Shown piece by piece: positions 19,601 to 30,676 of a stretch of 64,000 nt of DNA. Under the pieces are notes generated by a model. That model was not told the origin of the DNA, did no database searches, and worked only from the letters and a program-made list of their open reading frames with translations. Numbering within the stretch: position 1 is the first letter of the stretch; the number at the start of each line of letters is the position of its first letter. The stretch comes from Desulforamulus ruminis DSM 2154 (GTDB taxonomy: Bacteria; Bacillota; Desulfotomaculia; Desulfotomaculales; Desulfotomaculaceae), in the NCBI RefSeq assembly GCF_000215085.1, contig NC_015589.1, positions 1,922,001 through 1,986,000 of the forward strand. Reading direction: 5' to 3'. The translations under genes and the position numbers were made by a program.

Positions 19601-20017
19601 TTAATAGTTTTGCTGGAAACTCCCACCGGACTGCTGTTGTTGATTGTAGAATACCGGGGAATAGGATTGCTGGTTTTGATAACCGGCCTGTTGGTTTTGA
19701 ATGCCTTGATATTGTGCCTGCTGATGAATGGTGCTCATACTTTGCTGTTGTTCACTGCTCAGCTTTTGCACGTCGCTCTGAACCTGGCTCACCAGATTCT
19801 GATTGGCCATCATGGGTTGATGCCATCCGTGCTGATTGGCTAAATCGTACAGACTTTTTTGTTCGGCAAAGGTTCGATCCAATACATTGATATAATCCTG
19901 ACGGAGACTTTGGTCGCTGCATTCCAGGATTTTATTGGTCAGGCAAACAGCATCCCATTTTAAGTGATTCAGCATAGCCATACATAAATTTTTATCGGTT
20001 ACTTGGTCACCGCGCAT
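19601..20017 (-). CDS. CotF-like spore coat protein
   Basis: A 138-residue protein with a helical coat-F-like domain (~1-85: TDKNLCMAMLNHLK, LRQDYINVLDRTFAEQKSLYDLANQHGW) and a Gln/Tyr/Ser-rich tail typical of spore surface proteins. The NQHGWHQP segment is a good CotF-family marker. ATG 20017 with a GGGGGT ribosome site. The smaller gene at 20037 lies 19 bases upstream on the same strand, so the two form an operon running against the backbone genes. Likely made in the mother cell or forespore during sporulation. Confidence 0.85.
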   Translation of the reverse strand: MRGDQVTDKNLCMAMLNHLKWDAVCLTNKILECSDQSLRQDYINVLDRTFAEQKSLYDLANQHGWHQPMMANQNLVSQVQSDVQKLSSEQQQSMSTIHQQAQYQGIQNQQAGYQNQQSYSPVFYNQQQQSGGSFQQNY

Positions 20018-24706: not shown

Positions 24707-24779
24707 ATAAAAAGCGCTAAAAAACAGGGGCCCCAATCCGGGCATCTTTTAGGGCTATTATACCCTCTCTGCTTACCAT

Positions 24780-25452
24780 TTTTATTTTCAGTGCGGCAAG
24801 AATGCTCTTTGATTTTATTGGGCTTACCAATGGTCAGTGATCTTTTGCAGGCAATCAACAAGATATTTATAGCAGGGCAGAACTACTTTTCCGCATTACT
24901 CATTATTCTTGTCACATATTCTATGGTTTTTTGGCATACAAGACGGCAATGTTATTAAGGATACGTTGTCAAGCGCAACACCGGTTGCTTCTTCAATTGC
25001 AGAAACAACATCTTCACCAAGGGATTCTTTGATACCTATGTTTATTTAGGTGGTGCCGGAGCAACGCTGGGGCTGCTGATTGCCCTGTTATTGGTCGGAA
25101 AAAAACAGTAGTGAAAACCGGTTGGCGAAGGTATCTATTTTGCCCGGCATTATTAATATAAACGAAATTATGATTTTGGTTTACCTAATTATATTCAACC
25201 CTTATTTCTTTATTCCGTTTGTGTTTTCGCCTGTTGTACTGAGTCTTACCGCGTGGGTGTCTATACGTTTGGAATGGGTGCCTCTGGTAACGCAAGATGT
25301 CGAATGGACAACTCCATTTTCTTATCAGATTATCTTGGAACAGGATCAGTTGCCGGTATTGTGATGCAGGCCGTTAATCTGACACTTGCTGTTCTGATAT
25401 ATATTCTTTTTGTCCGAATGCAGCAAAGGCACCAGCAACACGTCCAGATTTA
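24780..25452 (+). pseudogene. Decayed PTS EIIC gene, lactose/cellobiose (CelB) family
   Basis: Three frames together spell the C-terminal half of a lactose/cellobiose-type EIIC permease. In order: NYFSALLIILVTYSMVFWH (about 24890-24950), FFDTYVYLGGAGATLGLL (about 25022-25080), PGIININEIMIL and NPYFFIPFVFSP (25140-25230), then GSVAGIVMQAVNLTLAVLIY up to a stop at 25452. At least three frameshifts and an internal stop break it, and the N-terminal half is missing. The order and spacing fit the permease domain, so this is a genuine relic rather than chance. No other PTS components are nearby. Confidence 0.75.
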
Positions 25453-25632
25453 AGTCTTTAAAAACTTAGGCAATGAGATTCAATATGTTCAAGAACGACA
25501 GCAGAAAACCATTCTTAATAGGCACGACGAAACAGGCTCTCTTGCCCGTGCTTTGATGGCTGAGATCAAAGACGGGTTCAGGAACCAGCCATTTAATTGC
25601 TTCCGGGCGAGTGCCGAATATAACCAATACCT
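25453..25632. other. Unassigned junction between PTS relic and glycosyltransferase gene
   Basis: No open frame with a start and ribosome site. Short in-frame stretches on the plus strand (such as ARALMAEIKDG) look like degraded coding sequence but match nothing I recognise. Confidence 0.4.
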
Positions 25633-27774
25633 TTATCGTACTACCATTTCCTTTCCGGCTGCTATTTCCTTTACGTGAACGAGCCTTTCCAATCCCAGCA
25701 ACCCCATATATTGCAGCATCTGACTTTCGGATATATTTTGGGTTGTTATGTAATTGTGAGCTATGATAAGTTGTTCGTAGTTAATAATGCCGCTGGTATA
25801 TAGTTCATCCAGCACAGAGTCTCCCTGCTCATTGCTTTGGAAGCCGTATGAAGCAAACATCTTGTCCAAACCTTCCATAATGAAGTTTTGTGACACGAAA
25901 ACTGCCTTGACAGTGATATCATATTTGTTTCGCAAAATGGTTTGCGCATCAATCGGGCTGTTGTCACAAAACGCGAATACATACCCTGATTTTGTTTTTA
26001 AAAGAGGGACAACGAGCAGTGAACGAAGTAATTTTTCGTCGAATACAGAAGCAAATTGCCAAAGCCGATAGTTTTTCAAAGTCAAAATATTGAGATACTG
26101 GATATGCTTAACATGCGACAGCGCATCGAGCAACTGTTCTTCTGTAATAATATTTTGCTCTAAAAGATAATTGCCAATGGTCTGCTTTTCATCATTTTGT
26201 GCACGCAGGCATACGTCCAAAGCATACTTGAGCTGTTCAGTGGTCACATAGCCCTTTTCCAGCAGCACATCACCCAATTTTCTATGGAAGCGTTTTAGCG
26301 CCTGCTCTCCAATAAAATCATGGTCCGTTTTATCCCACTTGATCTGTTTTTTTCCATTATTTTTGTTACCGGCAGCGAGCGTATTTACTTTTGCCGCTTT
26401 CTTTTCTTCCTTCTTTTTCGGCGTCTGATTGCCGAAAATTCTCTGCTTATATGCTTTGACAGTGGCGGTCATGTTAATGATATTTCCCCAAACCAGCCTG
26501 ATCGGTAACAGAGGCGGAAACAAGCAGGCAAAAAAGACGCTTCTCATACCATACACATTGTATATAGCGACGCTTCGGAACAGTTGCCGTTCAATCATCA
26601 TGACTGTAATCGCCAGACTTAAATACCAAGATGGGAAGTACATGGGGTATATGGGTTCCAGTGGAATAAACAACGAAACAAGAAAATAGATAAGTACAGG
26701 ATATCCGACGATTACCAACAGATTAACAACTTTTGCTTTCAAGTCTTTATAAAGCGAATAGCGCCCTACAAAGCGGATACCTTTGGTGGTGAAAACATCC
26801 TTCAATTTAAATGATTGCATTGTGATGCCCAAAATCCACCGCGCTTTTTGATTTACCGCTTGCTTAAAAGTATTAGGAAAAATGGATCGGGTTGCGATGA
26901 ACTCATCTACCAATTTATTATTATCGTTGATTCGGGGAACACGTTCCAAAACATAGTACACATCAATTCCTTTTTCGAAAAGAGTCAGTGAAAGACGGAA
27001 ATCTTCTGTTAGGCTGTCTTTTGGCAAAATATCTTCATCACCAAAAGCGCGAATGGTTTCCTTTGACAAAACAAACCCTGTTCCTGCCGAGGGAACAAAT
27101 GCCCCGTTATGATAGCGGCTTACCAATGTGATAAAATGATTCTCCGCAAATTCATCCGCATAGGTGCCTGTCGTAATGTTCTTGAAAAAGTTCCGGAATT
27201 TTGGCATTCGTATAAGAGGAAAGACAGGAAATTGCAGCACCGGATGTTTATCCAAAAGGGCATTTGTTACCTTTAACTCAAAAGGATGAACGACGTCTTC
27301 TGAGTCATGGATTGTGATAGATGCGAAACTCCATTGACGCTCCAGTTCAAACTGCTTAATTTGTTTAATAACATAGTTGATATTCTGTGCCTTCGATGTA
27401 GGCCCGTTCTTCTCATTGATAATCACATGTACATTCTCATACTTCTCCGCAAGTTCATTGGCGACAGCCAAAGTAGGCGCATCGTTCGGATAAATACCAA
27501 GAAAAATATGATACATGGACTTAGGGTAATGTGTTGAGGCAATGATATTGTTGATTACATCGCCAAGTACATTATCCTCACGCCAAGCGGCAATCACCAT
27601 TGCTAATAATTTAGGAGGAAGCGAATCCAATTTATGTAAATCCAATCGCTGTTTTCGATAGCGCGAACGCCTAAACATCGTAACAATGTCCCAAATAAAA
27701 TCATCTGCACCCATGATAATATATATCAGGGCCAGAAAAAAACCAATCAAATATATGGTGCTGTGATTACTCAT
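25633..27774 (-). CDS. NfrB-like membrane glycosyltransferase with C-terminal MshEN (c-di-GMP-binding) domain
   Basis: A 713-residue protein: one N-terminal membrane helix (~7-25), a GT2 catalytic domain with HDSED (156-160), TED (256-258) and QKARW (309-313), three to four membrane helices (~345-435), a Lys-rich linker, then an MshEN-type domain from ~498. That domain shows two tandem copies of the L-G-x-x-L-x-x-x-x-x-[IV]-[TI]-x-x-Q-L pattern (KLGDVLLEKG and TIGNYLLEQN). E. coli NfrB has the same architecture and length and is activated by c-di-GMP. No nfrA-like porin is next to it, as expected in a one-membrane cell. The polymer and sugar are unknown. Confidence 0.85.
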   Translation of the reverse strand: MSNHSTIYLIGFFLALIYIIMGADDFIWDIVTMFRRSRYRKQRLDLHKLDSLPPKLLAMVIAAWREDNVLGDVINNIIASTHYPKSMYHIFLGIYPNDAPTLAVANELAEKYENVHVIINEKNGPTSKAQNINYVIKQIKQFELERQWSFASITIHDSEDVVHPFELKVTNALLDKHPVLQFPVFPLIRMPKFRNFFKNITTGTYADEFAENHFITLVSRYHNGAFVPSAGTGFVLSKETIRAFGDEDILPKDSLTEDFRLSLTLFEKGIDVYYVLERVPRINDNNKLVDEFIATRSIFPNTFKQAVNQKARWILGITMQSFKLKDVFTTKGIRFVGRYSLYKDLKAKVVNLLVIVGYPVLIYFLVSLFIPLEPIYPMYFPSWYLSLAITVMMIERQLFRSVAIYNVYGMRSVFFACLFPPLLPIRLVWGNIINMTATVKAYKQRIFGNQTPKKKEEKKAAKVNTLAAGNKNNGKKQIKWDKTDHDFIGEQALKRFHRKLGDVLLEKGYVTTEQLKYALDVCLRAQNDEKQTIGNYLLEQNIITEEQLLDALSHVKHIQYLNILTLKNYRLWQFASVFDEKLLRSLLVVPLLKTKSGYVFAFCDNSPIDAQTILRNKYDITVKAVFVSQNFIMEGLDKMFASYGFQSNEQGDSVLDELYTSGIINYEQLIIAHNYITTQNISESQMLQYMGLLGLERLVHVKEIAAGKEMVVR

Positions 27775-28339
27775 GCGAAACCCATTTTCCCTCTAATCAT
27801 TAAAATAAATGTGGGTGTAATTATAAATTAGGCATAGATTTTGCGGGTTTCTATGTACTTAATTCGCCTTTTTTTGTTCTCAATAAAGCAGTATCTTTCT
27901 TCGATAGATGAAAGATGGTCACTCTTTACATATAGCTTCGATGGCATCAGCATAGCTTCATGAAGCAGGCAAGATATAATAGATAAATTAGGGGACATAC
28001 TTGCATTTTATTCTTTTTCGGGACGTAATAAGTGGAGTAACAAGCATAGGAAGTGGCTATCCACCCGCCACCTTCCGTCGATTGCCGCCCGGCCTGCTTG
28101 CGCAGGCTGAGCGTTGCAATCTGCTTAATGAGGACACCCATACCTCCGGAAAGGAACTGAATGAAATCGAACCACAAAAGCAGCCGAACTGCAAGCGGCC
28201 AATACAGAAAGATAGAAGAACCGAAAAAGACCGACGATAAATTCCTTTAACGTAGGCGATACAAGCCATTCCGCAAGGACATGACTCATCGTCAGGGCAA
28301 AATTAAACGGAATTTTGGCGCTATAACGCTACGGAAAAA
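27775..28339. other. Non-coding or decayed stretch
   Basis: AT-rich at its left end, GC-richer from about 28050. A 76-codon minus-strand frame at 27947-28177 has a mixed composition and no ribosome site, so I do not call it. The right part probably belongs to a decayed IS3 element ending at 28435. Confidence 0.4.
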
Positions 28340-28475
28340 CGCTATATGGATTACTACAATAACCACCGGAGCAAGGCAAAGCTTAAGGGCTTGCCGCCTG
28401 CACTTTACAGACAGCAAGCCCTCTCGGCTGCTTAATTAAAATTATTTTCTAACTTTTTGGGATCACTTCAAAATC
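28300..28475 (+). mobile_element. IS3-family element remnant: transposase OrfB 3' end
   Basis: Bases 28340-28435 encode RYMDYYNNHRSKAKLKGLPP followed by ALYRQQALSAA and a stop, the usual C terminus of an IS3-family DDE transposase. The sequence after the stop (TAACTTTTTGGGATCACTTCA) resembles the right-end region of such elements. The rest of the element is missing or unrecognisable, so it is inactive. Confidence 0.75.
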
Positions 28476-28626
28476 AGTGTCCTTCGTCGTTTTTCCACCA
28501 TCATACCCGCACCGCACAGTTTTGACTGTACCTGTTTATCGGGGCTTTTTTGTTATATGTCTTACTGGTGTGGAGGCTAAAGGCTCCTTTTTTATTGTGC
28601 GCTCAGGATATAAAGATTGGCTTGTC

Positions 28627-28935
28627 TTAATCCAGCAGGTTTTCTTTACAGTGAGGACAGCGAGCGGGGGATCCTCCATAGTATTTTCCACAATGCCGGC
28701 AGCTCTGGACCATATCCGATGTAATATCCCGCGGTTCTTGCCTGGAATTTTTTGATCCCCTATTTCCGGCAACCGTACTTTGCAGCCAAAAATAAAGAGG
28801 GATGGCAATAGCCGGCATAAAGAAAGTCCCCATGGCCCAACGCAATGAAGAGCGAAAGTCATAACCATTTTTTTGACTATGCCAGAGAATCCAGATGGCT
28901 CCCAGCAACCCAAAAGCAAACCAAAGCAAAGGCAT
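28627..28935 (-). CDS. Membrane protein with C-terminal zinc ribbon
   Basis: A 102-residue protein with two membrane helices (~3-18 and ~33-52) and a C-terminal CRHC-x10-CPHC rubredoxin-like zinc ribbon. This is a common layout for small membrane proteins of unknown role in Firmicutes. ATG 28935 is chosen because GAGGTGAT lies 5 bases upstream; the earlier ATG at 28968 has no site. It belongs to the minus-strand set of small genes in the island. Confidence 0.75.
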   Translation of the reverse strand: MPLLWFAFGLLGAIWILWHSQKNGYDFRSSLRWAMGTFFMPAIAIPLYFWLQSTVAGNRGSKNSRQEPRDITSDMVQSCRHCGKYYGGSPARCPHCKENLLD

Positions 28936-30032: not shown

Positions 30033-30608
30033 TTAGTCTTTGGTTAAAATTTCACAATCTTTGCGAACCAGATAGAAGCCGTTCATTTCAAGGTAATGAT
30101 ATAGGGGCTTTCCCAGATTCCGCGCCCACCGGGCACAGTGCCTTGTGCCGCCTGTGATGATGCCGTCGGGAGGAAAGGTTCCTACTACCAATACTTTACT
30201 GGACAGCATGGCCTGAACTTTGTCCCGGACCACAAAGGTCCATTTGGCAGTCGATTGTCCGGATTTAAAGGGACTTAACAAGCAGCCTCCCCTTTGCATG
30301 ATCTTTACAGCCAGATCTTTATTCTCCGGGGGATAAACCGGGGCTGAAAGCCCAAAGGGCACTACGGCTACGGTAATGCCTCCTTCATCCAGACAGCCGT
30401 TATGGGCGGCGGTGTCAATGCCGGTGGCCAGGCCTGATAGGACCACCAGCCCTTTTTTTGCTGCCTGGCGGGCTAAAGTATAGGCCATATGGCAGTCCCG
30501 CAGGTGCTGGATGGAAGAAGGATCTTCCAAGGGCGGCCTGCGGGGGCCCACAATGGCGATAACCTTTTTGTTTTCCGGAAACAGACCGCTGCAGTGGAAA
30601 ATCATCAT
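30033..30608 (-). CDS. Stand-alone DprA/Smf-like (SLOG) Rossmann protein
   Basis: A 191-residue protein that matches only the Rossmann core of DprA: VIAIVGPRRPP at 16-26, GLATGIDTAAHNGC, YPPENKDLA, then a strand VLVVGTFPPDGIITGG. Classical DprA (SSB/RecA-interacting, in DNA uptake) is usually 280-370 residues with an N-terminal SAM-like or C-terminal DML1-like winged helix; both are absent here. SLOG-domain relatives also bind nucleotides in stress and defence contexts. ATG 30608 is chosen for its GGGAGG site; the track-length frame to 30665 lacks one and would overlap the yajQ promoter. Confidence 0.8.
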   Translation of the reverse strand: MMIFHCSGLFPENKKVIAIVGPRRPPLEDPSSIQHLRDCHMAYTLARQAAKKGLVVLSGLATGIDTAAHNGCLDEGGITVAVVPFGLSAPVYPPENKDLAVKIMQRGGCLLSPFKSGQSTAKWTFVVRDKVQAMLSSKVLVVGTFPPDGIITGGTRHCARWARNLGKPLYHYLEMNGFYLVRKDCEILTKD

Positions 30609-30648
30609 CAAAACCTCCCGGTTGATTTTAGTAAAAACAGTGAATCCT

Positions 30649-30676
30649 TTGACAACATTATCCATTATGATATAAT
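30649..30676 (+). promoter_or_regulatory. Sigma-A promoter for yajQ
   Basis: Consensus TTGACA (30649-30654) and TATAAT (30671-30676) with a 16-base spacer, 30 bases before the yajQ start. Confidence 0.8.

Follow-up and report, generated by a model that had tools for sequence, protein, structure and literature searches.

An NfrB-like glycosyltransferase with an eroded MshEN motif and a truncated wecB neighbor in the Gram-positive bacterium Desulforamulus ruminis

An intact gene related to nfrB of Escherichia coli lies in the genome of Desulforamulus ruminis DSM 2154, a bacterium with no outer membrane, and raises the question of what such a synthase would make in this host, what would control it, and how it came to be there. 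The available text of the two reports on the E. coli system states that NfrB function requires WecB and no other ECA gene, and that two groups proposed a ManNAc polymer from this dependence; in the same text no solved structure is given for NGR, the polymer of E. coli NfrB (PMC8669469, PMC8669472). NfrB homologs are rare in Gram-positive bacteria, Eggerthella lenta being one example (Junkermeier and Hengge 2021, PMC8669469), and the available text of that report holds no analysis of a Firmicute clade, of its motifs or of its gene neighborhoods, such as we present here. We study the window, that is the whole 64-kb stretch of D. ruminis DNA that was analyzed, together with 33 related loci (numbered below with the prefix L) that were found by scanning 84,980 species genomes. 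These loci are mostly Firmicute, from Oscillospiraceae, Lachnospiraceae, Peptococcaceae and one Enterococcus, the non-Firmicute ones coming from Coprothermobacter, one Chloroflexota and one deltaproteobacterium. At L015 (8001–9497) and L035 (8359–8916) the nfrB-like sequence is broken into two frames, through either a pseudogene or an assembly error.

The window gene occupies exactly the interval originally predicted, 25633–27774, but on the minus strand, and encodes 713 amino acids in an intact frame, the plus strand across the same interval carrying 21 stops. The NCBIfam NfrB model (NF008411) scores 281.9 bits over residues 9–692 and so falls below its equivalog cut-off of 1170; judged by sequence, the protein is therefore a homolog of NfrB rather than an equivalog of the proteobacterial enzyme. 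Its GT2 domain and subsequent membrane helices span residues 54–387 (26614–27615, minus strand; Pfam PF13641 149.8 bits, PF13632 79 bits), and the three motifs by which a GT2 membrane transferase had been recognized are practically invariant in an alignment of 28 homologous sequences. HDSED (residues 156–160; 27295–27309) is kept in all 28, with S158 replaced by alanine in a few rows, TED, the catalytic base in GT2 synthases (residues 256–258; 27001–27009), is invariant, and so is the QK-x-RW pattern of QKARW, the QxxRW acceptor or channel site (residues 309–313; 26836–26850). A W-x-K-T-x-H linker (residues 480–485; 26320–26337) joins the membrane part to the MshEN domain; W480, K482, T483 and H485 are unchanged in 28/28 rows, the E. 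coli NfrB equivalent reads WDKTTH, and the linker is a candidate gating element. A full-length AlphaFold model (pLDDT 85.5, pTM 0.86) predicts a membrane-embedded processive-synthase fold, residues 1–498 matching BcsA and hyaluronan synthase (HAS) in a fold search with Z 21–24 over 370–400 residues; compared with the sequences of solved structures, the GT half matches BcsA weakly.

The C-terminal half was folded separately because the fold search with the full-length model probed the GT half only. Its 230 residues give a model (pLDDT 86.4) whose top matches among solved structures include 5htl, MshE with bound c-di-GMP (Z 12.3; 138 residues at rmsd 3.2), as well as PilF-GSPIIB with Z 12.5 (5htl and 9glg together Z 12.3–12.5), the unrelated rows of the same search reaching Z 4.4 at most and residues 650–713 giving no interpretable match. 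At the sequence level the MshEN domain covers residues ~497–642 (25849–26286, minus strand), where the NCBIfam c-di-GMP_motif model (NF053729) scores 57.2 bits over a cut-off of 38, Pfam MshEN scores 13 bits, under its cut-off of 23.1, and the sequences of solved structures that match are PilB and MshE. The structure prediction proposed as a check on the original claim of a C-terminal MshEN domain, which a different fold would have refuted, thus supports the MshEN fold. A shared MshEN fold alone is, nevertheless, no proof of c-di-GMP binding.

Wang et al. 2016 (PMC5013675) described the binding signature as a pair of 24-residue motifs separated by 5 residues, and found that substitutions of Arg and Gln cost up to about fivefold and hydrophobic ones more than tenfold. 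In the window protein the motifs lie at residues 499–522 (repeat I, KLGDVLLEKGYVTTEQLKYALDVC) and 532–555 (repeat II, TIGNYLLEQNIITEEQLLDALSHV), and the two tandem L-G-x-x-L repeats of the original prediction are borne out only in part: the hydrophobic core and the LG/IG glycines (G501 and G534) do occur twice, but repeat II has I-G-x-x-L, the repeats are separated by 9 residues rather than 5, and neither passes even the relaxed motif that Wang et al. defined, Arg having become K and T, Gln C and V, and the second Gly of repeat II N. Both retained glycines correspond to G491 and G519 of E. coli NfrB, whose substitution lowered killing by N4 (PMC8669472). Repeat I of E. coli NfrB is degenerate too, its second motif being complete, unlike that of the window protein, and 27 of the 28 members still match the c-di-GMP_motif model. 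Binding of c-di-GMP by the window protein is on this basis likely, and is graded no higher because the Arg and Gln ends of the signature motif are lost; the assignment as an NfrB-like, c-di-GMP-gated polymer synthase in a Gram-positive bacterium stands putatively, with less sequence support for binding than had been implied. Three deeper-branching relatives (L030, L033 and L034) continue past the first pair with extra MshEN-type repeats, of which L034 has up to five, so that a second nucleotide site may have been present ancestrally and then lost in the main Firmicute clade; E. coli NfrB has a second C-terminal MshEN-type repeat at residues 691–714, which is absent in the window protein.

The gene sits in an insert at 24707–28629, between a rodZ-like gene and a small zinc-ribbon gene, in the order mnmH, rodZ, insert, zr113, o126, o87, dprA, yajQ, rimO. 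This insert is 3.9 kb long in the window, compared with about 0.03–0.16 kb at the same site in six same-genus genomes, in keeping with the island proposed originally, and nfrB was found in 0/8 other genomes of the genus. The window's is the only nfrB among the 113 genomes of its class that were searched, and 4/391 genomes have it in the class of Anaerotignum and 7/397 in the phylum of L005, counts that include genomes already known to carry the gene. On the tree the window protein groups with Oscillospiraceae sequences (66% to L005), a placement that has weak support (82/84) and departs from the lineage of the host; together with the empty site in congeners, this placement indicates that the locus was horizontally acquired, and it is partly decayed. 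Upstream of nfrB lies the C-terminal remnant of an IS3-type transposase (RYMDYYNNHRSKAKLKGLPPALYRQQALSAA; 28339–28435, plus strand; Pfam rve_2 31 bits, cut-off 22), and 27.8–28.3 kb is without a readable gene. As for vehicles, a phage-borne origin found no relative among 50,697 phage records, a plasmid-borne one found plasmid matches only to proteobacterial NfrB at ~28–31%, and the window has no tRNA that could have served as an integration site. No clear promoter was seen upstream of the gene in what is a weak test, and no c-di-GMP or other riboswitch reached Rfam gathering thresholds between positions 20 and 36 kb of the window. Elsewhere in the window, a 210-residue DprA/SMF-like protein (30033–30665, minus strand) stands in the same place in 6/6 congeners compared, and a protein with a Coat_F spore-coat domain (19601–20017, minus strand; Pfam 61.8 bits) fits a spore former.

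The gene had been said to have no partner, which does not hold: directly past its stop comes the start of WecB, UDP-GlcNAc 2-epimerase (KVLVIFGTRPEAIK), which agrees with the consensus at 13/14 positions and ends after ~16 codons. This wecB stump (IKVLVIFGTRPEAIKW; 25589–25636, minus strand), beyond which homology stops, was identified by the consensus, whose next-best place in the 64-kb window matches at 7/14, and by tblastn in the 1 kb downstream of nfrB (E 7e-5). The host genome also has one intact wecB, at 3.76 Mb, so that both a truncated and an intact gene for supplying UDP-ManNAc are present. A survey of neighbors for epimerases and hydrolases, suggested with the original prediction, yielded both. 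Intact wecB adjoins nfrB in 7 of the 33 related loci (L012, L013, L020, L022, L023, L025 and L034), either upstream or downstream, and six of them group together in a seven-member clade with weak support; on the tree the adjacency requires 3 changes, a value as low being reached in 1/500 shuffles. No wecB was found beside nfrB in the closest homologs, L004–L011. Co-occurrence at the genome level was discarded as evidence, since wecB is present in 26/26 genomes with nfrB yet also in 59/60 relatives without it and is thus nearly universal; only adjacency was counted. According to the available text of Junkermeier and Hengge (PMC8669469), nfrB is linked to a wecB-like gene where the organism has no wecB in another pathway, and the window locus extends this pattern. 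The stump, the linkage in relatives and the WecB dependence of E. coli NfrB make a ManNAc-based polymer the leading guess for the product, by analogy, and to this extent the polymer is not wholly of unknown nature, as it had been called.

Among the other neighbors, a GH8 hydrolase (L005 10212–11309, plus strand) lies directly downstream of the closest nfrB homolog and might trim or release the polymer, DUF2334 deacetylase-like proteins stand beside nfrB in L010 and L011, and an esterase-domain protein does so in L009. In the deltaproteobacterial locus L034 NfrA (NfrA_C) and a DUF4434 protein follow. GGDEF genes adjoin nfrB in L020, L025 and L029 and lie one gene off in L012, an enrichment that is only suggestive because the cases are few and from related lineages; the host genome itself has 20 GGDEF matches.

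On the far side of the wecB stump is a second decayed gene, a PTS EIIC-EAL fusion truncated before its EAL domain (25080–25591, plus strand; Pfam PTS_EIIC E 5e-5, TIGR00359 52 bits). A further eroded EIIC reading runs from ~24740 on the same strand, the whole remnant region covering 24707–25591, and at least two frame changes plus stops fall within ~0.85 kb. What is left is the C-terminus of EIIC and a linker, the full-length type being a c-di-GMP phosphodiesterase with a sugar-permease sensor. The final stretch, NEIQYVQERQQKTILNRHDETGSLARALMAEIKDGFRNQP, is not EIIC; in the genome search it aligns to the linker of EIIC-EAL fusions, and residues 1–149/150 of the composite remnant align, linker included, to frames of ~700–750 aa. 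Matches that include the linker are mostly to frames of this length, and those without it mostly to frames of ~430–470 aa; three long frames scanned with Pfam all contain EIIC and EAL. A long frame that matches EIIC and the linker occurs in at least 14 of the 391 Clostridia-class genomes that were searched. The EAL catalytic domain was not found in the remnant, which stops ahead of it at the junction with the wecB stump, and for this reason the remnant is, as read from its sequence, not functional. The EIIC-EAL stump runs as far as 25591 and the oppositely oriented WecB stump as far as 25589, directly abutting, and from this coincidence we infer that a single deletion took the EAL domain together with the remainder of wecB. 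No EIIC-EAL gene was found in the analyzed flanks of other nfrB loci, L031 having a GGDEF-EAL protein ~3 kb off, and the link between EIIC-EAL and NfrB is accordingly drawn from this window only. Beside this stop-ridden remnant, the intact frame and catalytic motifs of nfrB suggest that the synthase has been retained.

The leading explanation, to which we give about an even chance, is that the gene encodes a processive synthase that responds to c-di-GMP and makes a ManNAc-type surface polymer, and that decay of its neighbors has left it an orphan. The protein would be a processive family-2 glycosyltransferase of NfrB type in the inner membrane, whose GT2 domain polymerizes a UDP-amino sugar, most likely UDP-ManNAc from a WecB-type epimerase, and threads the chain outward through the synthase's own membrane helices in the manner of BcsA and hyaluronan synthase; a cell that has no outer membrane would not need the NfrA pore. 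Binding of c-di-GMP to MshEN would relieve inhibition, perhaps through the W-x-K-T-x-H linker. The locus would have arrived horizontally with its own wecB, tail to tail with the gene for an EIIC-EAL c-di-GMP phosphodiesterase, and the deletion that joined the ends of these two genes would leave the surviving synthase dependent on the genome's other WecB and the general c-di-GMP pool, which probably still serve it. The lack of a clear promoter, the failure of both repeats against the relaxed motif and the absence of adjacent wecB in L004–L011 were counted against this explanation. A more elaborate form of it, in which the locus was a self-contained Gram-positive module with an NfrB-type synthase, its own ManNAc epimerase, an EIIC-EAL off-switch governed by sugar uptake and a reshaped MshEN tuned to a local c-di-GMP pool, we consider quite improbable.

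Several rival explanations bear on separate parts of this scheme. The MshEN domain of the clade may no longer sense c-di-GMP, being structural or otherwise regulatory and leaving the synthase constitutive or under another input, which we regard as possible but doubtful. The Arg and Gln anchors are gone from both window repeats, in the main Firmicute clade there is no protein whose two repeats both satisfy the relaxed motif, whereas E. coli and the deeper branches retain at least one that does, and the spacer is lengthened in the window protein and by ~30 residues in L004 and L006; yet the costlier hydrophobic positions (PMC5013675) and both glycines are kept, nearly all members match the c-di-GMP_motif model, motif I of E. 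coli NfrB is degenerate as well, and GGDEF genes lie at or one gene from nfrB in four loci. It is unlikely, in our estimate, that the product is built from a different amino sugar or from a hexose, as a GlcNAc polymer or a beta-glucan would be, with the vicinity of wecB incidental: the WecB stump, the seven loci with intact wecB on either side of nfrB and the dependence of E. coli NfrB on WecB speak for ManNAc, even though the fold is common to cellulose, hyaluronan and chitin synthases, the GH8, DUF2334 and esterase-domain neighbors would suit other polymers, and the closest homologs have no adjacent wecB.

The gene could also be a non-functional relic, intact in appearance, stranded by transfer and decay and unexpressed. 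Truncated partners, an IS remnant upstream, no clear promoter and no copy in congeners would all be expected of such a relic, but a 2.1-kb frame with every catalytic residue has survived next to a neighbor full of stops, and the genome encodes the enzyme for UDP-ManNAc and enzymes of c-di-GMP, which together lead us to think this improbable. A role of the polymer as a receptor for phages of this host, which the original prediction allowed, is suggested by analogy alone with NGR and phage N4 in E. coli (PMC8669472, PMC8669469); the search of 50,697 phage records, which probes phage-borne copies and not receptor use, gave no relative, and the idea finds no support and appears very improbable.

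As a c-di-GMP-responsive synthase of a ManNAc-type polymer, the window protein would resemble several known systems without coinciding with any. It shares with E. coli NfrB the full-length GT2 plus MshEN architecture, at about 29–34% identity, along with HD-x-ED, TED, QK-x-RW, the W-x-K-T-x-H linker and both MshEN glycines, but its motif II is eroded, its wecB is an nfrB-linked remnant rather than part of the ECA operon, its host has no outer membrane, and no NfrA partner, which is not expected there, was found in its gene neighborhood. Like the NfrB homolog of Eggerthella lenta, it comes from a bacterium without an outer membrane pore. BcsA (fold Z 22–24) is likewise a processive GT2 enzyme under c-di-GMP control, putatively so here, but senses the messenger through PilZ in place of MshEN and is expected to differ in substrate, and the hyaluronan synthases of Chlorella virus and Xenopus (Z 21–23) combine synthesis and export in one protein with no outer-membrane partner, as may be the case here, but alternate two substrates and have no second-messenger domain.

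The occurrence of NfrB in Gram-positive bacteria and the linkage of nfrB to wecB had already been published; new here are the eroded MshEN motif of the Firmicute clade, its wecB-linked branch and the lost EIIC-EAL neighbor. The decayed neighbors suggest which enzymes once traveled with the locus, and the clade illustrates the extent to which the MshEN motif can change while its fold persists, which bears on the prediction of c-di-GMP receptors from sequence. If it works without NfrA or ECA, a Gram-positive homolog would offer a simpler setting for addressing the identity of the sugar and gating by c-di-GMP.
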